DNA from: Arenicellales bacterium
GTDB lineage: Bacteria; Pseudomonadota; Gammaproteobacteria; Arenicellales; JAANXG01
Reading direction: 5' to 3'
Assembly: GCA_030066885.1 (NCBI GenBank)
Contig: JASJAT010000034.1
Coordinates: 1-35,100 of the forward strand
Length of the DNA stretch: 35,100 nucleotides
The first letter of the stretch is position 1, and each line of letters begins with the position of its first letter. The notes under the pieces were generated by a model. The model was not told the DNA's origin and did not search any database. It saw nothing but the letters and a program-made list of their open reading frames with translations. A program made the position numbers and the translations under genes. This document shows positions 2,865 through 35,100 of the stretch, one piece after another.

Positions 2865-4124
2865 ATGGAATTCTTTCAGCGGCGAAATTCAGCACTATAT
2901 CTTGAGGACGTTGCCCTATCGAAAATTGCGGAGCGAGTGGGCACGCCTTGTTACGTATATTCGCGTGCGCTGATTGAGGCGAACTGGCGTGCCTATGACC
3001 ACGCCTTTGGTGGCAAGCCTCATTCTATTTGTTACGCCGTCAAAGCCAATTCTAATCTCGCCGTGCTGGGGGTTTTGGCAGATCTGGGTTCGTGGTTTGA
3101 CATCGTTTCTGTGGGTGAGTTGGAACGGGTATTGATGGCAGGTGGCCGTCCCGAACGGGTCGTCTTTTCAGGGGTGGCAAAAACCCACGATGAATTAGAA
3201 AGAGCACTGCAGGTGGGAATTCATTGTTTTGATGTTGAATCGATAGAGGAACTGCAGCGTTTGAGTCAGATAGCGCAGCGTCTTGACAAGGTTGCGGCAA
3301 TCGCTGTTCGCGTAAATCCTGACGTGGACGCTAAGACCCATCCATACATTGCAACCGGCTTAAAAGAGACAAAATTCGGCGTCGGGTTTAACAGCGCAGT
3401 TGAAACCTACCTTACGGCTGCCAATCTCCCGAACATTGAAATAACCGGAATCGCTGCTCACATCGGGTCTCAGATTACGGAAGCGGCACCGTTTATCGAA
3501 GCCTTGGAATGCATGCTCACACTTATTCAGCAGCTTGCTACGCAAGGGATCGAAATAAACCACCTGGATATCGGGGGTGGATTGGGCATTCGCTACCAGG
3601 ATGAAGCACCGCCCAATCCGCAGTCCCTAATAGAGGCAATGGTGAAACGGGTTCATGCAAAAAGGCCCGATCTGACTATATACGTGGAACCCGGCAGGTC
3701 TATTGTGGGCAACGCAGGTGCGCTTCTTACCAAAATCGAATATTTAAAATCCAACGATAGTAAGCACTTTGCGGTGGTCGACGCCGGGTTGAACGATATA
3801 CTACGGCCGGCTTTATATAAAGCTTGGCAAAACATCGTCCCGGCGACGGAAAGGAAGGAGACACAGCCAAGGGAATACGACGTAGTGGGCCCGGTATGCG
3901 AGACCAGTGATCTATTGGGATCGAAGCGAAGGCTCGCAGTAGAATCGGGGGATGTCCTGGTGATCATGGACGCGGGGGCATATGGTCATGTTATGAGTTC
4001 AAACTATAACTCTAGGCCCCGTCCACCTGAGGTAATGGTAGACGGTGGTCAGTACCACGTAGTACGTAGAAGGGAAACAATCAACCAATTACTGGCCGCC
4101 GAATCGGTATTGCCGGCTAACTAA
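2865..4124 (+). CDS. lysA: Diaminopimelate decarboxylase
   Basis: PLP-dependent cytoplasmic enzyme that converts meso-diaminopimelate to lysine. The 419-residue protein has the fold-type III layout. YAVKANSN carries the PLP lysine (K60), HIGSQI lies near residue 200, and EPGRSIVGNAG is present. CETSD in the C-terminal barrel is the partner active-site loop, and GAYGHVMSSNYNSRPRPPEVMV is a typical C-terminal motif. The start ATG at 2865 gives the usual MEFFQRRN beginning. In many relatives dapF follows lysA; here the next gene is an unrelated periplasmic protein, so dapF must be elsewhere if present. Confidence 0.97.
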   Translation: MEFFQRRNSALYLEDVALSKIAERVGTPCYVYSRALIEANWRAYDHAFGGKPHSICYAVKANSNLAVLGVLADLGSWFDIVSVGELERVLMAGGRPERVVFSGVAKTHDELERALQVGIHCFDVESIEELQRLSQIAQRLDKVAAIAVRVNPDVDAKTHPYIATGLKETKFGVGFNSAVETYLTAANLPNIEITGIAAHIGSQITEAAPFIEALECMLTLIQQLATQGIEINHLDIGGGLGIRYQDEAPPNPQSLIEAMVKRVHAKRPDLTIYVEPGRSIVGNAGALLTKIEYLKSNDSKHFAVVDAGLNDILRPALYKAWQNIVPATERKETQPREYDVVGPVCETSDLLGSKRRLAVESGDVLVIMDAGAYGHVMSSNYNSRPRPPEVMVDGGQYHVVRRRETINQLLAAESVLPAN

Positions 4125-4312
4125 TGAATCCACCTCCCCTCAGCCCGCCATTTCGAGGACCTCGAACTCAATTCAGTAGGCGTACTCATCTAGTGACTTA
4201 AAAGAATAAAGATGAAAGTTTAAAGAACTGGTTTTTCAATGGTTTGCTTAGGTTTGGTATCTTACTTTTCACTTTCAACTTTGCACTTTCAACTTGTTCA
4301 CTGGATCGCCTC

Positions 4313-5632
4313 ATGTTGATAACTCGTTATCGTTGGTGGTCTTCCCCCCACGTGCATGCCGACAGAAGTGTTAGGTTTATTTCTTATCTCTGCTTTGTAG
4401 GGTTGTGTTGTAAATCTTTGCTTTTTGCAATCCCCAGCCATGCATTCGAGTATGAAGATTTGGTTGCTCTCATTCGGGACAAGGAGCTTACGACTATAGA
4501 TACGGTTATAGAAAACTTGCCGAAGGAGTACCTGCAGAATTTTACGTTGGCCTTCGGTAGCCGTAGCTTGCATGGGTCTTCATACGAAAACCCTAGGGTG
4601 ATTCTTTTTGGAAACACGGCCAAATTTATCATTGCATTCAATGGTGACCCCACCCATAGCGAATATCATAGTTTAGAGGCAATGCAGTTTAGAGAGGAAA
4701 GTAAGGTATTTGAACTGCGTTCAATTTCATTTGAAAACGGTGTCCGTTTCTCGGGCAAGAATCCGTCTGTTTGTCAGAATTGTCATGGAATCAATCCGAG
4801 ACCGATTTGGAGTAGCTATGAATATTCGGACATTGAAGACCGCGAGCACTGGCCGGGATTCTATGGGTCGACACACGACGCACCAGTTTTGAACGAAAGA
4901 GAGCGCGAGGCTTACATCCGTTTTCGTAAACTCGCTGCTGAACATCGACGCTATCGATTCCTGATATTAGATCACCCTGAAACAGACTGGTATCCATTCG
5001 GAACCGGCCCGCATCAACACCGATTTCGACCTAACAACCGACTCGGAAACCTGCTGGCCCGGTTGAATGCAAAAAGGATAGCCAATGACCTAAAGAGCAA
5101 GGTTTTTTTTCAAAAGTATCCAAACATCGCCTTGCAATGGCTGTTGCAATGTAACCAGGCCGAACAAGAACACTATTTAAGCTTTATTAAGAGCTTGTAC
5201 GATCGCGATGTTGAACCTCTATTACATGTCAAACTGGACCAGTTCCGGTCAAAATCCGTCGAACAAGTTGCTTTTGTTTTTGAGAAGCTCTTATCGGGTC
5301 TGGATGTGTATACATGGAATCTCAGCCTGAATCCCTCACCGGACGAGCCGCGTTTCTTTACCGGTATCGTTAGCATAGACGATTTAGTTGCTGCTGCCGT
5401 ATTGAGTGAGCTGGCCGACAACCACTGGTTGCGGCGTTATTACGTCCCGTGGACGCAACGTCAGTTATACAACTCGTTCCAGGAAGGTTACTACGACGCC
5501 AATGTAGCGCCTGGAGAGGTTGGTAAGTCTTATGACGAAATCGAGTTGTTCTTTGATCGCGAGCGTGCAAAGCAAGCGTGCTCTCAACTGGAACAGTATG
5601 GCCGGGAAGAGGCAGGCATGAAGAATGACTAG
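4313..5632 (+). CDS. Putative periplasmic protein with a single CxxCH motif, function unknown
   Basis: About 439 residues from ATG 4313. An in-frame ATG at 4244 would add 23 residues, but 4313 places the hydrophobic stretch VRFISYLCFVGLCCKSLLFA close to the N-terminus as a signal peptide ending near PSHA. One haem-binding-type motif, CQNCH, lies at about residues 154-158 and is followed by GINPRPIWSSYEYS. Shortly after comes WPGFYGSTHDAP. The CxxCH motif and export signal suggest covalent haem c, but there is no classical cytochrome c fold and no obvious distal Met. The remainder is charged and rich in Trp, Tyr and Arg. It stands between lysA and aroE with 27 bp to aroE, so it may share a transcript. 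I do not recognise a named family. Confidence 0.7.
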   Translation: MLITRYRWWSSPHVHADRSVRFISYLCFVGLCCKSLLFAIPSHAFEYEDLVALIRDKELTTIDTVIENLPKEYLQNFTLAFGSRSLHGSSYENPRVILFGNTAKFIIAFNGDPTHSEYHSLEAMQFREESKVFELRSISFENGVRFSGKNPSVCQNCHGINPRPIWSSYEYSDIEDREHWPGFYGSTHDAPVLNEREREAYIRFRKLAAEHRRYRFLILDHPETDWYPFGTGPHQHRFRPNNRLGNLLARLNAKRIANDLKSKVFFQKYPNIALQWLLQCNQAEQEHYLSFIKSLYDRDVEPLLHVKLDQFRSKSVEQVAFVFEKLLSGLDVYTWNLSLNPSPDEPRFFTGIVSIDDLVAAAVLSELADNHWLRRYYVPWTQRQLYNSFQEGYYDANVAPGEVGKSYDEIELFFDRERAKQACSQLEQYGREEAGMKND

Positions 5633-5658
5633 TAAGGATAGTCAACAGGGTATTGAAG

Positions 5659-6528
5659 ATGTCTGACCTGTTCGACTTTGATCAGCCGCCGCCTTTGTAC
5701 GCTGTCATGGGCAACCCGGTTGCGCACAGCAGGTCCCCCGAAATTCACCAGCTGTTTGCTCAACAAGCATCGATCAAGATCGACTACCAACGCCTTCAGG
5801 TTGATGTGGGTGGTTTTGCACAAGCGGTAAGTAATTTTCAAGCCAGTGGTGGCCAAGGTTTAAACGTGACAGTCCCGTTTAAAGTTGAGGCATGGGAGCT
5901 AACAGATACCTGTAGCGAACGTGCTGAGTTGGCACGTGCAGTGAATACTCTGTGGTTTGAGGCCAATGCGATAAACGGCGATAACACGGATGGTGTTGGT
6001 ATCGTCCGAGACATCAATAATAATTTGCAACGACCGATCAATCATACCCGGCTATTGGTGTTGGGTGCTGGAGGGGCGGTTAGAGGTGTACTCGGAGAAT
6101 TGTTGCGTTGCCAGCCGAGTCAAGTTGTTGTTGCCAATCGAACCGTCGACAAAGCGGTCGAGCTTGCCGATACGTTCCAAAATCATAGTAACGCTGAAAT
6201 ACTTGGCTGTGGGTTCGGGGAATTGGAGGAAATGCACTTCGACATCATTATCAACGGCACCGCCGCAAGCTTGACCGGTGAAGTCCCGCCCATACCGAAG
6301 ATACACTTCGGCGATGGGGCACTGGCCTATGATATGGTGTATTCAACGAAACCCACGGCTTTTATGCGTTGGGCTACAGGTACTGGTATTCCTCACGTTT
6401 CAGATGGCCTAGGCATGCTGGTGGAGCAGGCCGCGGAGTCTTTTTATATCTGGCACGGCTACCGGCCAAGCACCGAACCGGTCATTCGGGCTTTGCGGAG
6501 CGGCACCGCGACAGAAGATGGCCTGTAG
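5659..6528 (+). CDS. aroE: Shikimate dehydrogenase
   Basis: NADP-dependent reduction of 3-dehydroshikimate to shikimate in the chorismate pathway. NPVAHSRSPEIH binds substrate near residues 19-30, and GLNVTVPFK carries the catalytic lysine (K75). GDNTDGVG holds the catalytic aspartate (D111), and LGAGGAVRGV (about 135-144) is the nucleotide-binding turn. I chose ATG 5659 over an in-frame TTG at 5653. The protein, about 289 residues, is slightly long; the extra residues are at the N-terminus (DLFDFDQPPP) and the C-terminus. The stop codon TAG lies inside a REP palindrome (6524-6551), so the last residues may have been altered by that element. Confidence 0.96.
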   Translation: MSDLFDFDQPPPLYAVMGNPVAHSRSPEIHQLFAQQASIKIDYQRLQVDVGGFAQAVSNFQASGGQGLNVTVPFKVEAWELTDTCSERAELARAVNTLWFEANAINGDNTDGVGIVRDINNNLQRPINHTRLLVLGAGGAVRGVLGELLRCQPSQVVVANRTVDKAVELADTFQNHSNAEILGCGFGELEEMHFDIIINGTAASLTGEVPPIPKIHFGDGALAYDMVYSTKPTAFMRWATGTGIPHVSDGLGMLVEQAAESFYIWHGYRPSTEPVIRALRSGTATEDGL

Positions 6529-28025: not shown

Positions 28026-28102
28026 GGCTATGTAGCTCAGCTGGTTAGAGCACGGCACTCATAATGCCGGGGTCGGTGGTTCAAGTCCACCCATAGCCAC
28101 CA
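28026..28102 (+). tRNA. tRNA-Met, elongator type (anticodon CAT)
   Basis: The 77-nt cloverleaf has acceptor GGCTATG/CATAGCC and CCA encoded. The anticodon arm CGGCA-CTCATAA-TGCCG gives anticodon CAT. The D-arm AGCTCAGCTGGTTAGAGC and the overall sequence match elongator tRNA-Met better than the lysidine-modified tRNA-Ile2. It marks the boundary between conserved and accessory DNA. Confidence 0.93.
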
Positions 28103-28126
28103 TCCAACTTTGGGTCCATTCTGGGC

Positions 28127-28163
28127 ACATAGGTAACAGTTTATACCGAGGACATAGGTAACA
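28127..28163. repeat. Short direct repeats, possible IS-end remnant
   Basis: The 12-mer acataggtaaca occurs at 28127-28138 and 28152-28163. Similar acataggtaaca-type sequence occurs at the ends of some insertion sequences. No matching partner end or transposase is seen here. Confidence 0.35.
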
Positions 28164-28404
28164 CATTTGGAGCGAAGGGATTGTCACCCACGGGCTCCAC
28201 TCGGTTCTCGTCTTGGTCGGGCCTTTGTTCATCCGAGTCCCCTAGATATCCCCTCGCGACCTGGGTTCTCCCGTGCCCGAGCTCGGCGGCGATGATCCGC
28301 CGGGCCGTCCCATAGCGACGGCGCTGAGTTCGGCTCATTTTCCGCCGCATCGGTCTTCCCCGCTTGGAAGGAGGGTGGCCGGTGAGCTCCTTGTAGCGCG
28401 TGAT
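28141..28404 (-). pseudogene. Tyrosine-recombinase (integrase) C-terminal remnant
   Basis: An open minus-strand frame from 28404 to 28141 encodes ITRYKELTGHPPSKRGRP and then RRYGTARRIIAAELGHGRTQVARGYLGDSDE. ELGHGR...YLG matches the C-terminal box of integrase-domain proteins (LGH followed by the tyrosine nucleophile). An in-frame stop lies just before the Ile and the N-terminal and central parts are missing, so it is a remnant. The IS-like sequence adds unrelated residues at the 3' end. Sitting 39 bp from tRNA-Met, it is the expected position of an island integrase. The identification is from motif memory, not a search. Confidence 0.5.
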
Positions 28405-28502
28405 CTACACGAGCCGGCGGCATGACTGGGATGAAACCTCCGACGAGACACCGAGTTTCGAGGCGATGCCTCCGGAGTCGTAGGTCGAAACTCCCGAGAC
28501 TG

Positions 28503-29426
28503 CTAAGAGCCGGCGGTATGCGCTTCCCGGTATTCGCTTGGCCCCATACCGAAGAACTCCTGAAATGCGTGGCTGAAGTGGCTTCGGCTCTCGTAACCCA
28601 CCTGTCCGGCGATGGCCTTGACCGGCTGATCCGAGTTGGCCAGCATGCGCGCCCCGGCGCGCAGCCGAACCTCGGTTACGAAATCCATCGGCGAGCGCCC
28701 GAACGACTCCTTGAACTGCGCGGCAAAGGTCGAGCGGCTCATCGCGCACATATCAGCCAGGATTTCCAGTGAATAGCGCTGGCCCGGCTGGTCGATCACC
28801 TTCTCTATGGCGGCGCTCAGGCGGGGTTTCTCCAGCGCCAGCAGCCAGGGCAGCCGGCACTCCGATGATTCCCCGTGTGCGCGCAGCAATTGGATGAAAC
28901 ACTGCTGAAACAACACCTTTAACATGGAGCGTGAGCCGACCCGGGGTCGGGCCATCTCATCGATGATGGAGTCTATGCTGTCCCGTATTGGGTCGCCTTC
29001 CCGGGTGTGGAGGACAATCGGCTCCGGCAGGTAGTCGAATATCCCATCCAGCCCCCGGTAGCGGGCATCCACCGATCCGCAGGTAACTGCGACGCCGCCC
29101 TCGAGTTCGCCGATATTCCGCCCCGCCTCCACGAGTTCAGCATCCATGGGTCGGCACTGGCGGACGCGCTCCGACAGATCGGCGGGTAAACCGGTGCCCT
29201 CGAGGCGGTGTACGGTTCCCGCCGGCACGACAACCATGGTCCCGGGCTCCGCAGCCACCCGGTCCCGGGCGTCGAAAGTCAGAACGCCTCTACCACCGAG
29301 TACGTAGTGAATGGTGGCTTCGTCCCGCGGCCCGAGGTCGAGCGATTCCCCCGCCTCTGCACAGCAGAACGCGAACGGCCGCACCACGATGTCAAGATTC
29401 TCGAACAATTTGTCTATTGACAGCAC
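28503..29426 (-). CDS. AraC-family transcriptional regulator with cupin sensor domain
   Basis: From GTG 29426, with GGAAG 8 bp upstream, the protein is 307 residues. The frame remains open upstream, but the extra 94 residues are not protein-like. The N-terminus (residues 1-90) is a cupin-type ligand pocket with GGRGVLTF and PAGTVHRLEG. The C-terminal pair of HTH motifs is clear: YSLEILADMCAMSRSTFAAQF and PVKAIAGQVGYESRSHFSHAF, then GMGPSEYR. It is divergent from the cysteine hydrolase gene and probably controls it. G+C content is higher than in the core region. Confidence 0.88.
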   Translation of the reverse strand: MLSIDKLFENLDIVVRPFAFCCAEAGESLDLGPRDEATIHYVLGGRGVLTFDARDRVAAEPGTMVVVPAGTVHRLEGTGLPADLSERVRQCRPMDAELVEAGRNIGELEGGVAVTCGSVDARYRGLDGIFDYLPEPIVLHTREGDPIRDSIDSIIDEMARPRVGSRSMLKVLFQQCFIQLLRAHGESSECRLPWLLALEKPRLSAAIEKVIDQPGQRYSLEILADMCAMSRSTFAAQFKESFGRSPMDFVTEVRLRAGARMLANSDQPVKAIAGQVGYESRSHFSHAFQEFFGMGPSEYREAHTAGS

Positions 29427-29616
29427 GATATCTTCCGTATCCTGCTTCCGCCAAGCAGTATACCCACCTCCGGACGATACCGCACAGAATCCGGACGATT
29501 CTGAACCGCGTCGGACGATTCCGCACCTATACCGGCCCAAGGAACACGCCAATCTGCTTACTCTGAAGCCGTGGTCAGATTCACAGTTCATAACTTCAAC
29601 GTACGGAGGTATCGAA

Positions 29617-30444
29617 ATGTACAACAAACCAGGCATCAACCATGAAATAGCCGATGACGCCGTTGACCGTCGTGGGTTCCTGAAGACCGGTCTCGCCCTC
29701 GGCGCCACCGCAGCCGCTGCCGCCGGTGCACTCCCGAGTCGCGCCGCTGCCGCGGAAAATCCGTACGCGGACCCCGCAGAGCCCGCACTGCCGCCGTCGA
29801 ATATGGTGCTGGACCCGAGCCGAGCCGCGCTGGTGGTGGTTGACCCTCAGATCGATTTCCTCAGCCCCGATGGAGTCACCTGGGGCGTGGTGGGTGCGAG
29901 CGTGCAGGAGCACAATACGGTCGAGAACCTGGAGCGGCTGTTCAAGGCCGCCAAGCAGGTCGACCTGACGGTGGCGGTCTCGCCGCACTACTACTACCCC
30001 ACAGACAAGGGCTGGCGCTTCGAAGGGGCGCTGGAGAAGCTGATGCACGCCATCGGCATGTTCGACCGGGAAAGCCCTTTCGAACTGACCGAGAATTCCG
30101 GCGCCGACTTCATGCCCCAGTACAAACCCTACATCCTCGATGGCAAGACCATCATCACCTCGCCGCACAAGGTGTATGGCCCCGAAGTGAACGATCTGGC
30201 GCTCCAGTTGCGCAAGCACGGCGTTGACCAGGTCGTGCTGGCGGGCATGTCGGCGAACCTGTGCGTGGAATCGCACCTGCGCGAGTTGCTCGAGCAGGGA
30301 TTCGAGGTGGCCGTGGTCCGCGATGCGACCGCTGCCGCGAAGATCCCCGAGGGCGACGGCTATCTCGCCGCCATCATCAACTTCCGCTACATCGCGAACG
30401 CCCTTTGGACCACGGATGAGGCGGTCAAGCTCATTACCGCGTGA
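29617..30444 (+). CDS. Tat-exported isochorismatase-family cysteine hydrolase
   Basis: Protein of 275 residues. The N-terminus has a twin-arginine signal (DRRGFLKTG, then a hydrophobic Ala-rich run), cleaved near AAAENPYADP. The hydrolase domain has ALVVVDPQIDF with the catalytic Asp, SPHKVYGPE with the likely Lys, and GMSANLCVESHLRELLEQGF with the nucleophilic Cys, completing the Asp-Lys-Cys triad of nicotinamidase/isochorismatase enzymes. ATG 29617 has GGAGGT 6 bp upstream. Export in a folded state is unusual for this family, and the substrate is unknown. It is probably controlled by the adjacent AraC protein. Confidence 0.85.
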   Translation: MYNKPGINHEIADDAVDRRGFLKTGLALGATAAAAAGALPSRAAAAENPYADPAEPALPPSNMVLDPSRAALVVVDPQIDFLSPDGVTWGVVGASVQEHNTVENLERLFKAAKQVDLTVAVSPHYYYPTDKGWRFEGALEKLMHAIGMFDRESPFELTENSGADFMPQYKPYILDGKTIITSPHKVYGPEVNDLALQLRKHGVDQVVLAGMSANLCVESHLRELLEQGFEVAVVRDATAAAKIPEGDGYLAAIINFRYIANALWTTDEAVKLITA

Positions 30445-30928: not shown

Positions 30929-31864
30929 CTATCCAAGTCTACTCTCTGCGATCTCAAGGCTTCTCGCCACAGCTTCGTGAAGCAGGATCGGTTCGCTCCC
31001 TGGCCCCACCGTCAAGAGTTTTGGGCCAGTTCTTGGCGACCCCACGTACGGGCGAATATAGACTTGACCATCCGGGCATCGCTCGAAATAAGTGTATCCC
31101 TCATCGTGCCCCACTCTTGTGCAGCCCTTAATTCTGAGAATCGTGCGCGGAATCGAATCACAAATATCATTGATGCATCCAACGTTAGGAAGATCGGGAA
31201 GATCAATGGAACACGAGGACCAGTGCGCCTTGTTGTGGTCTAGGCTGGTGATTGCTTTTTCAATGGGTTTGAGCTTTGGAATCAGTAATACATCGAGCTC
31301 TGCTTTGGTTACAATCGAGGCAAGCGGATTGACTTTCCTTACCTCAGTATCAACTTGAGCCACTCTTTCTTTCGAAACGCCCTCGAGATGTGTGAAGAGA
31401 ATGAGAGAAGAGACTTTAAGCTGTTCAGCTTCAAGCTCGTTGTGAAAACCTCTCTTTTGCCAGTTCTTTACGTCCACCACAGATACTTGAACCGGAGGCA
31501 TAAAACGTTCTTCCAGGCCAACACCGAGAAAACCCATCAGTGTACATGCATCGGAGGTGCCGTTCGCCTCAATCAGCGTTATTCCTCTCCTCCTCGCTGG
31601 GATGCTGTTCACGCAGTCTCTTAGCTCGCCAATGCCGTCGCAACAAATACAGCTGCCAGTAAGGGCTTTCACCGACCTTGGCATGATGTCAACGGAAATC
31701 TGCTGGGCATCGAGATCCGCGTTCATGTAGTCATTGAGGATCACATAGGGATCCCACCTTTTCTCAAGGAAGCTCTCGACTAGGTGCCTTAGGAGCGTGG
31801 TCTTTCCTGCCCCCAAGAAACCAACGATAGTTACAATCGATTCCGTTGTGTTCGCAGCGTGCAT
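30929..31864 (-). CDS. COG0523 (CobW/YjiA)-like P-loop metallochaperone, atypical
   Basis: Protein of 311 residues. GFLGAGKTT (15-23) is Walker A, and CICC (72-75) is the CxCC metal-binding motif of COG0523. SVVDVKNW matches the Walker B region. The guanine-specificity NKxD is not present: the equivalent place reads LFTHLEGVSK (about 156-165), so nucleotide preference may differ. A short C-terminal domain is present (YTYFERCPDG and following). The family delivers zinc or other metals to client enzymes and is often Zur-controlled. Base composition is lower in G+C than in the flanking genes, suggesting separate acquisition. Confidence 0.8.
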   Translation of the reverse strand: MHAANTTESIVTIVGFLGAGKTTLLRHLVESFLEKRWDPYVILNDYMNADLDAQQISVDIMPRSVKALTGSCICCDGIGELRDCVNSIPARRRGITLIEANGTSDACTLMGFLGVGLEERFMPPVQVSVVDVKNWQKRGFHNELEAEQLKVSSLILFTHLEGVSKERVAQVDTEVRKVNPLASIVTKAELDVLLIPKLKPIEKAITSLDHNKAHWSSCSIDLPDLPNVGCINDICDSIPRTILRIKGCTRVGHDEGYTYFERCPDGQVYIRPYVGSPRTGPKLLTVGPGSEPILLHEAVARSLEIAESRLG

Positions 31865-31916
31865 TTTACGAACGCATCCTTAGAAGTATCGATGGCGGAG
31901 CAGGTATTTTGTAAAC

Positions 31917-31931
31917 AGTTGCAACATAACA
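31917..31931 (-). promoter_or_regulatory. Possible Zur-like operator upstream of the COG0523 gene
   Basis: On the minus strand TGTTATGTTGCAACT lies 53 bp before the COG0523 start. It matches ten of fifteen positions of the palindromic Zur core TGTTATAATATAACA, including one full half-site. It also contains GTTGCAAC. It is a weak match judged by eye. Confidence 0.3.
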
Positions 31932-31964: not shown

Positions 31965-32990
31965 TTACAAACCCATTATTGGTTTCAGCGCAAATGAGGC
32001 GTTCAGCAGCCACAGCCCCAAAAGCAATAGCAGGGCACCGCCAAGCGCTCCCACACCACCTGCTACTAGCGTCCACAGCGGTGACCGGTGAGCGACCACC
32101 GCACTCGCCCAACTCCGGGCCTTCGTGGCAAGAAAGGCCAAAACGACAACAGTGACCGCGGTCCCCAGGGACATCGCCATCACGGCAAGCGCGCCATGCC
32201 AAATTATGTCCATCACAGCGGCTAGGATCAGCACCAACACTGCTCCGCTGCACGGGCGCAGCCCAATCGCCAATACCACGCCAACCATCGCATGACGGCT
32301 GTCAACGGTGTCAATTTCAACCGCGCTGGGCAGATGCCGGCAGCCACAACCATCCCCGTGTACATGACCGGCATGGTCGTCGTGGACTTGGCCGGTTTCA
32401 TGCCGCAACTGGCGAACACTATGGGCCAAGGTGGCTGCGGCGCGTGCTAGCAGATAAAGTCCGACGATTGCAAGTAGAGTGAAGCTGACCCGCGTGGCCC
32501 ACAGTGATGCGGTTTCTGTCTCCCTCGGCAGCCAGCCGGCCATACCAACCAGGCCGTAAACCAGCAACAGCGCCGTTACGCCCTGCAGCAGCGCCGCGCT
32601 CGTCCCCATGGCGATACCGCGATTCAGCCGGCTTCGTTGGGTCAACAGGTAGGTCGTCAACACGGCCTTCCCATGTCCAGGCCCTGCGGCATGCAAGACA
32701 CCGTAAAGAATGCTCATCAGTACCAAAGCCCAGCCCACACCATCCTTGCCACGCAGGTCTCGTAACTCCCTCGTCAGCGCACGGTGAAACTCGCGCTGCT
32801 TTGACCAGACCCAGGTCGCAGCCTGATCCCAGACGGCGACTGCCTGCCTGGCACCAGCGTATTCATCACCTGTGGACTGCTCGATGATGGTTCGCTCACC
32901 CAGCAGTATATTTGTCGCATGCGATTCGGCCGAGAACACGATCGCACCCATCCATGCGAGAAAAATGGCCAAAGAGCAACTCACTCGCAT
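31965..32990 (-). CDS. NicO-family metal permease (nickel/cobalt or zinc)
   Basis: Membrane protein of 341 residues with an N-terminal signal/helix, several transmembrane segments and the NicO motifs LYGVLHAAGPGHGKAVL (about 95-111) and GLRPCSGA (243-250). Between them a cytoplasmic or periplasmic loop is rich in histidine and cysteine (201-219, HDDHAGHVHGDGCGCRH), a typical metal sink. Related RcnA and HoxN-type proteins move Ni or Co. Here the gene overlaps DUF1007 by 10 bp, a recurrent partnership, and stands in a zinc-type locus, so zinc is possible. Confidence 0.85.
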   Translation of the reverse strand: MRVSCSLAIFLAWMGAIVFSAESHATNILLGERTIIEQSTGDEYAGARQAVAVWDQAATWVWSKQREFHRALTRELRDLRGKDGVGWALVLMSILYGVLHAAGPGHGKAVLTTYLLTQRSRLNRGIAMGTSAALLQGVTALLLVYGLVGMAGWLPRETETASLWATRVSFTLLAIVGLYLLARAAATLAHSVRQLRHETGQVHDDHAGHVHGDGCGCRHLPSAVEIDTVDSRHAMVGVVLAIGLRPCSGAVLVLILAAVMDIIWHGALAVMAMSLGTAVTVVVLAFLATKARSWASAVVAHRSPLWTLVAGGVGALGGALLLLLGLWLLNASFALKPIMGL

Positions 32991-33622
32991 CGAATGGTCA
33001 CCGTTTCAGAGAACTGAATGCCGAGGTCATCACCACCGCTTTCATTTATCCCGAGCGAGGCCGCGTAGGCGACCAGGGCCGCGTCCGGTCTTGGCGCTTC
33101 GAGATGGTATCGACACGCCGGTGGCGCGTCTTTGAGCACGATGGCCGGCCCCTCTTCGGCGTGCAACATCTCGACAAAGTAAGTCGGCTCCGCGACCCGA
33201 TAGACAATGTCGCTTTTCGTCGGGTCCAACGGTACTGTCATCGGCAGGCGGAATTCGATCTCGATCCGATGATCCCGCATGCCAATCCGGGTTTGCTCGG
33301 GGGTGCCTAATTTGGCCTCTCCACCTTCGTGTTCAATCCGAATAAAGTAATGATGCTTCGATGTGTTACTCAGTATCTGATTGAGGATCGCCTGTAATTC
33401 CTCCCCGGTCGCGGCTGCATCATCGGTCAGCAACACCGAGTAGTAATCATCGAATAACCAGCGCAGTTTCACGCCGCTGATCAGTCCCTTTGGATTGAAT
33501 TGCCACTCGGCGAATACATCGATCCAATGGTGGGGATGGGCCTGTGGCGCTGAATTGCCGAGCAACAGCAGCAGCATCAATCCGGCCATGCCGCATCTGT
33601 GGTAATGCCGTACACCCATCAC
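32981..33622 (-). CDS. DUF1007 family exported protein
   Basis: Protein of 213 residues with a signal peptide (RCGMAGLMLLLLLGNSAPQA) and then the DUF1007 signature HPHHWIDVFAEWQFNPKGLI and LRWLFDDYYSVLL. HPHH near the mature N-terminus could bind a metal ion. The family is nearly always next to NicO-type permeases and is thought to act as a periplasmic accessory for metal uptake. It overlaps the upstream small gene by 4 bp (ATGA) and nicO by 10 bp, so the three are translationally coupled. Confidence 0.85.
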   Translation of the reverse strand: MMGVRHYHRCGMAGLMLLLLLGNSAPQAHPHHWIDVFAEWQFNPKGLISGVKLRWLFDDYYSVLLTDDAAATGEELQAILNQILSNTSKHHYFIRIEHEGGEAKLGTPEQTRIGMRDHRIEIEFRLPMTVPLDPTKSDIVYRVAEPTYFVEMLHAEEGPAIVLKDAPPACRYHLEAPRPDAALVAYAASLGINESGGDDLGIQFSETVTIRCE

Positions 33623-33855
33623 GTCTTGGCAGCAGCGCGTTGAAACCAGGCCAACACCTGCTCGCGATAGGAATCACCGTACAACCTCGCGAAACGTTGT
33701 GATTCCTCGTGGTGCGGATCACCGAGAACGGCGATGCGCGCCTGAAGAAACTCGGGCGTCAACGCCAGACCGCATTTGACTTCTATGCAATAGCGCCAAC
33801 TTGTGTAGTCGCCGGGAAACAGTTCCGCGGCATAGCGTGCGGTGTCGTCGGCCAT
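33619..33855 (-). CDS. Small protein of the metal locus, unrecognised
   Basis: From ATG 33855 it has 78 residues: MADDTARYAAELFPGDYTSW and onward, containing RYCIEVKCG with two cysteines, LTPEFLQARIAVL and REQVLAWFQ. I preferred this start because the longer frame upstream is a shadow of the COG0523 remnant. Starting 4 bp after the remnant's stop and overlapping DUF1007 by 4 bp, it is evidently an operon member. C-x6-C plus the setting might suggest metal binding, but no function is known to me. Confidence 0.7.
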   Translation of the reverse strand: MADDTARYAAELFPGDYTSWRYCIEVKCGLALTPEFLQARIAVLGDPHHEESQRFARLYGDSYREQVLAWFQRAAAKT

Positions 33856-33859
33856 GGGG

Positions 33860-34039
33860 TCAGTCCTCGTCGTGCTCGGCAGACCACTTCGGGAAGGGGT
33901 CGTCGAACGTCTTCCAGGTGTCCGGGCCGGCCGCCAGCTCGACATCGGCGAGCAGACAGCGATCGGGGATGTCGCGGGTCCGCTCAGGCTCGAGGTACCG
34001 GCCGATGAACACGATCTCCTGGCGGCTAGCCCTGATGCC
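33860..34039 (-). pseudogene. COG0523 GTPase C-terminal remnant
   Basis: Reading on from the receptor gene stop, the same frame encodes 59 residues without a good start codon: SRQEIVFIGRYLEPERTRDI, then PDRCLLADVELAAG and DDPFPKWSAEHDED. RQEIVFIG...CLL.D.E...DPFP.W is the usual C-terminus of zinc-regulated COG0523 proteins. The P-loop and CxCC parts are missing, so an internal deletion probably removed most of the gene, leaving the remnant between the receptor gene and the 78-aa gene. Confidence 0.6.
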
Positions 34040-35059
34040 TCACGAACCGAGCGCCTGCGCGAGTGTCGTCGCGTTGTGGCGCATCATTTCGAGATAGGTT
34101 GGCGCAGGACCATCCTGGTCGGAGAGCGCGCCAGGATAGAGCGTCCCGCCGATGGTGGCGCCAGTCTCGTTAGCGATCTGCTCCAAAAGGCGCGGGTCAG
34201 CGACATTCTCGACGAATGCCGCTGCGATACCTTCAGCGCGCATCTGCTCGATCAAAAGGGCGACGTCCTGCGCCGAAGCTTCGCTGTCGGTGCTTAGCCC
34301 CTGCGGTGCGAGGAATGTCAATCCGTAGTCGCGGCCAAAGTACTGGAACGCGTCATGAGACGTGACGACGGTGCGGCGGTCGGCCGGCAGGCTTGCCACG
34401 ATCTGGTGGATCTCAGCATCTAACGCCTCGATCTCGGCGACGTAAGCTGCGCGGTTCTGGTAGAAATCGGTCGCATTCGCCGGATCGGCCTGGGCCAGAG
34501 CGGCAGTGATGTTGTCGACATAGGTCACGGCAAGGCTGAGGCTCTGCCAGGCGTGCGGGTCAAATGCGCCGTGATGATGGCCATGACCCTCGTCATCCGC
34601 GTGATCTTCGCCTTCGTGTTCTCCGTCTTCGTGCGCTTCGTTTTCGGCATGCTCTTCACCTTCGTGATGCTCTTCATCCTCGTGGTGCTCTTCGCCTTCT
34701 TTGAAGGCCATCGGTTCGATCCCTTGGGTTGCAACCACGCGCGCGCCATCGAAATCGGAGGCGTCGATCAGCCGGTCCAGCCAGCCTTCGAACTCAAGCC
34801 CGTTGACGATGAGCACCTCTGCTTCGCTCACCGCACGCGCGTCGGCGGGGGTCGGCTTATAAACGTGCGTATCGCCATCGGGGCCGACGAGTGTCGTGAC
34901 GTTCACGTGGTCGCCCCCGATTCGCTCCACCATGTCGCCAATGATCGAGAAAGTCGCGACCACGGGCGTTGGTTGGTTTGACTGCGCCACCACGGGTGCG
35001 GCGAGCGCCAGGGCGACAACGGCGGTTGCAGATCTTAGAAGGGTTCTATGCAATTTCAT
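34040..35059 (-). CDS. Zinc ABC transporter substrate-binding protein (ZnuA/AztC-like)
   Basis: Protein of 339 residues with signal peptide 1-26 (cleavage after APVVAQ). Cluster A-I fold markers are FSIIGDMVERIGGD, DTHVYKP with ligand H65, FDPHAW with H169, and SHDAFQYFGRDYGL with H235. Between the first two histidines is a long His/Glu/Asp-rich loop (about 121-163), typical of zinc rather than manganese receptors. The closest type I recall is AztC of Paracoccus. It would pass zinc to an ABC permease and ATPase, which are not in view and may lie further right. ATG 35059 is preceded by AGAGAAG. It heads the leftward metal operon. Confidence 0.9.
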   Translation of the reverse strand: MKLHRTLLRSATAVVALALAAPVVAQSNQPTPVVATFSIIGDMVERIGGDHVNVTTLVGPDGDTHVYKPTPADARAVSEAEVLIVNGLEFEGWLDRLIDASDFDGARVVATQGIEPMAFKEGEEHHEDEEHHEGEEHAENEAHEDGEHEGEDHADDEGHGHHHGAFDPHAWQSLSLAVTYVDNITAALAQADPANATDFYQNRAAYVAEIEALDAEIHQIVASLPADRRTVVTSHDAFQYFGRDYGLTFLAPQGLSTDSEASAQDVALLIEQMRAEGIAAAFVENVADPRLLEQIANETGATIGGTLYPGALSDQDGPAPTYLEMMRHNATTLAQALGS

Positions 35060-35100
35060 AAGGCTTCTCTTTCAGGATTCGAAGTGAGGACGTGGCAGGG

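Follow-up and report, generated by a model that had tools for sequence, protein, structure and literature searches.

Haemophilus influenzae has, according to reviews, a second high-affinity system for zinc, ZevAB (PMC3872050, PMC8000910, PMC10563805). In Bordetella pertussis, one operon (BP3077-BP3082) encodes a metal ABC transporter together with a TonB receptor, a NicO protein, and a DUF1007 protein; its authors read it as serving manganese and nickel/cobalt transport (PMC9858536). Zur-regulated COG0523 clusters combine a zigA/yciC-type GTPase with DUF1826, zinc-enzyme paralogues, and a Zur box (Haas et al. 2009, PMC2770081). A fourth relevant system, AztABCD of Paracoccus denitrificans, is built around an AztC-group receptor with a His-rich loop.

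The window analysed here is a complete contig (G000:C132) of 35,100 bases from a genome bin of 250 contigs that is 89% complete. Near its right end, a leftward run of genes resembles each of these systems in part (Table 1). ZevA belongs to the DUF1007 family and ZevB to the NicO family, and on this basis the locus is like ZevAB in having neighbouring DUF1007 and NicO genes with an indicated zinc role (PF06226 and PF03824, encoded side by side with a 10-bp overlap); unlike ZevAB, the pair is joined here to an aztABC/zigA cluster. The Bordetella operon likewise brings a metal ABC transporter together with NicO and DUF1007, and a Fur-family regulator gene adjoins it, but that operon includes a TonB receptor, and neither zigA nor DUF1826 is reported for it (PMC9858536). 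The likeness to AztABCD lies in the receptor, in the aztA-aztB-aztC order of relatives, and in the end of an aztB gene upstream; it stops after aztC, where a zigA remnant stands instead of the chaperone gene aztD, and at a model score of 305 bits against a cut-off of 350. The COG0523 clusters have the same kinds of genes, but in the window zigA is a 54-codon remnant and DUF1826 has been lost. Because ZevAB is known and the Bordetella operon is published, the combination of DUF1007/NicO with a metal ABC transporter is not new.

The locus probably represents the downstream end of a partly decayed zinc-starvation cluster of the Zur type, which would encode an aztABC importer and a parallel DUF1007/NicO importer.

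Table 1. Features of the zinc cluster and of its left flank (positions in the window)
Feature	Position	Strand	Evidence or remark
tRNA-Met	28026..28102	+	Left edge of the foreign-looking segment carrying the cluster; congeneric similarity stops at its 3' end
COG0523/CobW-like GTPase, separate, 311 residues; possible further member	30929..31864	-	PF02492, E 2e-24
NicO-family permease (ZevB-like)	31965..32990	-	PF03824, E 9e-26
His/Cys loop of NicO, residues 193-218	32337..32414	-	HDDHAGHVHGDGCGCRH
DUF1007 periplasmic protein (ZevA-like)	32981..33619	-	PF06226, E 4e-42
Small helical protein, 78 residues	33619..33855	-	Homologues adjoin zigA/dksA/zur/aztABC genes
Remnant of zigA (ZigA-type COG0523 GTPase), final 54 codons with stop	33860..34024	-	DNA aligns with zigA in L027 and L030
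aztC-like zinc ABC receptor (solute-binding protein), signal peptide, His-rich loop	34040..35059	-	PF01297, E 9e-89
Receptor loop rich in His/Asp/Glu, residues 121-170	34550..34699	-	13 His and 22 Asp/Glu among 50 residues
3' end of the zinc ABC permease gene aztB, final 8 codons with stop, LPRPHFES*	35072..35098	-	Matches the AztB C-terminus of L027

The receptor and its truncated permease gene

The initial annotation of this DNA, made from the letters alone, described a zinc-type ABC receptor with a His-rich loop in a tightly packed leftward run with a COG0523 remnant, a small protein, DUF1007, and a NicO permease bearing a His/Cys loop, and all of these parts were recovered, in that order. 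The receptor and the remnant are separated by 15 bp and the remnant and the small protein by 4 bp; the small-protein and DUF1007 genes overlap by 1 bp, and those of DUF1007 and NicO overlap as given above. The receptor is a ZnuA-family protein, for which the NCBIfam model AztC is the closest although the score (E 7e-91, 304.6 bits) falls under the equivalog cut-off, and it is 79-82% identical to a protein of G015, a genome of the same order. A PF01297 receptor with a His-rich loop belongs with the cluster A-I zinc ABC importers, and His/Asp/Glu-rich loops are said to signal zinc specificity in such receptors (PMC7463823).

The same annotation saw no ABC permease in the window. The contig stops 41 bases upstream of the receptor start codon, but the 27 in-frame bases at its edge translate as LPRPHFES-stop, 12 bp ahead of the receptor ATG. 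AztB of the nearest relative, L027, ends in the same eight residues (25/28 bases identical), and aztB tails elsewhere among the relatives, such as ALPRRHFEV, lie 11-12 bp ahead of aztC. An aztB gene stands directly upstream of aztC in 64 of the 74 relatives with upstream DNA, at a median gap of 55 bp; the remaining 10 have no recognisable permease directly upstream, and L101, L102, L107, and L109 are aztC relatives of this kind. On the strength of the tail, its normal spacing, and the 64 relatives with aztB upstream, the permease gene is truncated by the end of the assembly, not missing. An ABC-3 permease gene thus adjoins the receptor, as an end here and intact in relatives, and because the AztB C-terminus lies 12 bp upstream, the receptor gene takes third place in the gene set of a zinc ABC importer, aztA-aztB-aztC.

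The gene aztA, present in relatives, would fall beyond the contig end here, and no complete aztA, aztB, or zur is found in the window. No true zinc-type ABC permease is encoded in the assembled genome, which is what the loss of aztB to an assembly gap would produce; the genome's single ABC-3 match (30 bits) is in a siderophore/B12-type (FecCD-like) operon. In L027 (positions 3168-6130; genome G015), a second zinc-type ABC receptor, a permease, and a possible outer-membrane protein adjoin zur-aztABC, and a Zur-box-like site lies ahead of these additional genes.

Partial deletion of zigA; a small conserved protein

DNA identity to the zigA genes of L027 and L030 starts directly after the 15-bp gap behind aztC. 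The GTPase domain, with the intact GTP-binding domain and CxCC that mark a ZigA-type protein, has been lost. Similarity to L027 reaches the end of aztC and picks up again 2.4 kb on, within zigA; the intervening DNA in L027 comprises two DUF1826 genes and 354 more zigA codons. Because this DNA is missing relative to L027, the COG0523 remnant is what a deletion of about 2.4 kb has left. Compared with L130, the pN/pS of the zigA tail (0.20/0.34) is higher than in the neighbouring genes (about 0.10-0.12 over 0.40-0.52). A decaying fragment would be expected to show this, although the tail is short. The C-terminal part of zigA also occurs alone in a second genome (L131, 6622-6837), where it adjoins the small protein, dksA, and NicO; its setting there is different, and the DUF1007 gene of L131 is apparently truncated.

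About 100 bp past NicO, the separate CobW-like GTPase carries GTP-binding and CICC motifs; no CobW_C domain was found in it, and a weak Zur-like half-site (31914-31929) lies upstream. At a guess, this protein might stand in for zigA.

The other genes of the run have been maintained. The dN/dS values are 0.09 for aztC (against L027) and, against L130, 0.13 for the small protein, 0.18 for DUF1007, and 0.21 for NicO, so that all four are under purifying selection, beyond chance.

Homologues of the small protein are encoded in 6 of 368 other genomes of the class and in L027, L030, L083, and L091. Ten of its loci were read, and nine have zigA, zur, dksA, DUF1826, folE2, or aztABC relatives nearby; at the tenth (L135), the gene is preceded, at a distance of 81 bp, by a 15/16 match to the Zur box. 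The family is found in Zur-type zinc clusters within Gammaproteobacteria and outside it. Pfam and NCBIfam gave no match for any of 11 members, nor did a comparison of the small protein with the PDB yield one by sequence or fold. The structure model has five helices (pLDDT 87); Y17, W20, C23, L32-T33, G60, and F71 are conserved, and C28 is nearly invariant. We suggest, tentatively and with some doubt, that the protein could be under Zur control and could act alongside ZigA-type GTPases, or more generally in zinc handling, in a role not described before; selection would then have preserved it here even after the loss of zigA. It is the least explained part of the locus and the part most worth testing.

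Origin of the segment

The zinc cluster sits within a foreign-looking segment right behind the tRNA-Met gene. Three congeneric genomes align with the window up to the tRNA 3' end (28102) and none aligns beyond it, although in one of the three its own contig stops at this same point; the GC content steps from 0.507 before the tRNA to 0.588 after it; and DUF1007 was not found in the other 108 genomes of the order. The foreign appearance is drawn from these three observations, and horizontal gain of the cluster is most likely. Genomic islands are usually inserted directly after a tRNA 3' end, and the position of the segment has this typical form. If the segment 28103-35100 were instead contamination or part of a chimeric assembly, joined on at the tRNA, the cluster would not belong to the host; this would account for the same GC step and the same absence of DUF1007 from the order, and for a short repeat directly past the tRNA-Met (window 28026-28520) that also opens another contig, C180. 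The closest aztC, however, comes from a genome of the same order (G015), and we consider a chimeric join rather unlikely and the genomic island the better reading. The question concerns origin, and either answer is compatible with a role in zinc uptake. Within the segment, an AraC-type regulator adjoins an isochorismatase-family protein with a twin-arginine signal (28503-30444).

The metal served by DUF1007 and NicO

The DUF1007 reading frame likely begins at the ATG at 33619, which overlaps the small-protein stop, and not at the GTG at 33622; the equivalent starts read MGLQHYYRCGMAG in the window and MGVRHYHRCGMAG in L130. An HPH motif shortly after the signal peptide and two Cys residues are common to the DUF1007 proteins. 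The window protein has no sequence match in the PDB, and its best fold match, the periplasmic domain, with copper bound, of a HupE/UreJ-2 protein (9gce), is no more than suggestive, with E 8e-5 but TM 0.34/0.41. In NicO the motifs HAAGPGHGK (family form HAxGPGHGK) and RPCSGA are conserved, and most other DUF1007-linked NicO proteins compared have similar His/Cys loops. These motifs would fit capture and transfer of a metal, without proving which one.

Gene order in relatives points to zinc, most strongly in L130. The nearest DUF1007 (80% identical) and the nearest NicO (78%) are found at this locus, which comes from a 100% complete genome, in a run that reads in one direction DUF1826-DUF1826-zigA-small protein-dksA-DUF1007-NicO-aztA-aztB-aztC-zur-zrgA and is headed by a single Zur-box-like site, TTATGTTATAATATAA. 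The order in L030 is aztA-aztB-aztC-DUF1826-DUF1826-zigA-small protein-NicO, followed by hisI and folE2 paralogues. Sites of the L130 form precede zur-aztA in L027 and most other relatives, and they resemble the Paracoccus Zur motif (PMC5387054). The matches are strong in L027 and L130; the window has no convincing Zur box, its best scores being far under those of the relatives and at most the weak half-site noted above, and the promoter would fall beyond the contig.

With DUF1007 present in only 16 of 369 genomes of the class, the proximity of the pair to aztC is far above chance: of the 58 loci with room, 16 have NicO and 13 have DUF1007 no more than 9 kb downstream of aztC. In a tree, the window NicO groups with three zinc-cluster NicO proteins (support 100/100); most rows owe their zinc label to selection through aztC, and only this close grouping was used. 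Zinc or related metal ABC genes adjoin DUF1007 in 5 of the 15 other DUF1007 genomes in the class sample, so the pair is not exclusively zinc-linked. Judged by gene order, the Zur-box-like site, and the nearest relatives, DUF1007 and NicO very probably serve zinc here.

Import of nickel or cobalt by the pair, with zinc neighbours that are accidental or metal shortages that coincide, would accord with the Pfam names of the family and with the NiFe hydrogenase and hyp genes of the host, which imply a need for nickel; in most of the sampled gammaproteobacteria, moreover, DUF1007/NicO genes do not adjoin zinc genes. It is nevertheless improbable, since the nearest relative has the pair inside a single run of zinc-shortage genes, none of 17 DUF1007/NicO loci searched matches hydrogenase or hyp seed proteins, and the hydrogenase genes of the host are on another contig. 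Export is a still weaker candidate. NicO shares a superfamily with RcnA of Escherichia coli, annotated as a nickel/cobalt exporter and likewise equipped with a His-rich loop, and an exporting NicO with DUF1007 could balance the import of zinc; identity to RcnA is only 18% and the RcnA branch of the tree is very long, Zur-type clusters are otherwise made up of shortage genes, and the published ZevAB works in uptake, which makes this very improbable. Least credible of all is the proposal of the initial annotation that the receptor passes metal to the non-ABC NicO permease. The genes are adjacent, and some receptor relatives do have no recognisable permease directly upstream, but the receptor has its own aztB there at normal spacing, cut by the contig end, and in L155, L156, L159, and L160 DUF1007 accompanies NicO as its periplasmic partner with no receptor gene detected nearby. 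That annotation had itself listed znuB/znuC directly adjoining the receptor as part of what would speak against it; the aztB end comes close to this, with aztA beyond the contig. Zinc as the metal of DUF1007/NicO remains well supported, although the pairing is already known.

Under the preferred reading, a Zur-type zinc-starvation cluster, the ancestral order would have been aztA-aztB-aztC-(DUF1826)2-zigA-small protein-(dksA)-DUF1007-NicO. Comparison with relatives shows that both DUF1826 genes and all but the end of zigA were deleted in the present genome. By analogy with those relatives, zinc shortage would take Zur off the promoter and the run would be transcribed; AztC would then take up periplasmic zinc for the AztB/AztA importer, while the ZevA-like DUF1007 protein may bind periplasmic zinc for the ZevB-like NicO permease as a second importer acting in parallel.

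The apparent novelty of the locus is thus removed: the receptor is no orphan, and a zinc role for DUF1007/NicO has precedent. What the locus offers is comparative support that ZevAB-type pairs, despite the Pfam name "nickel transport", are part of zinc-shortage gene sets well outside Haemophilus, and it directs attention to a small conserved protein without a family name in those gene sets.
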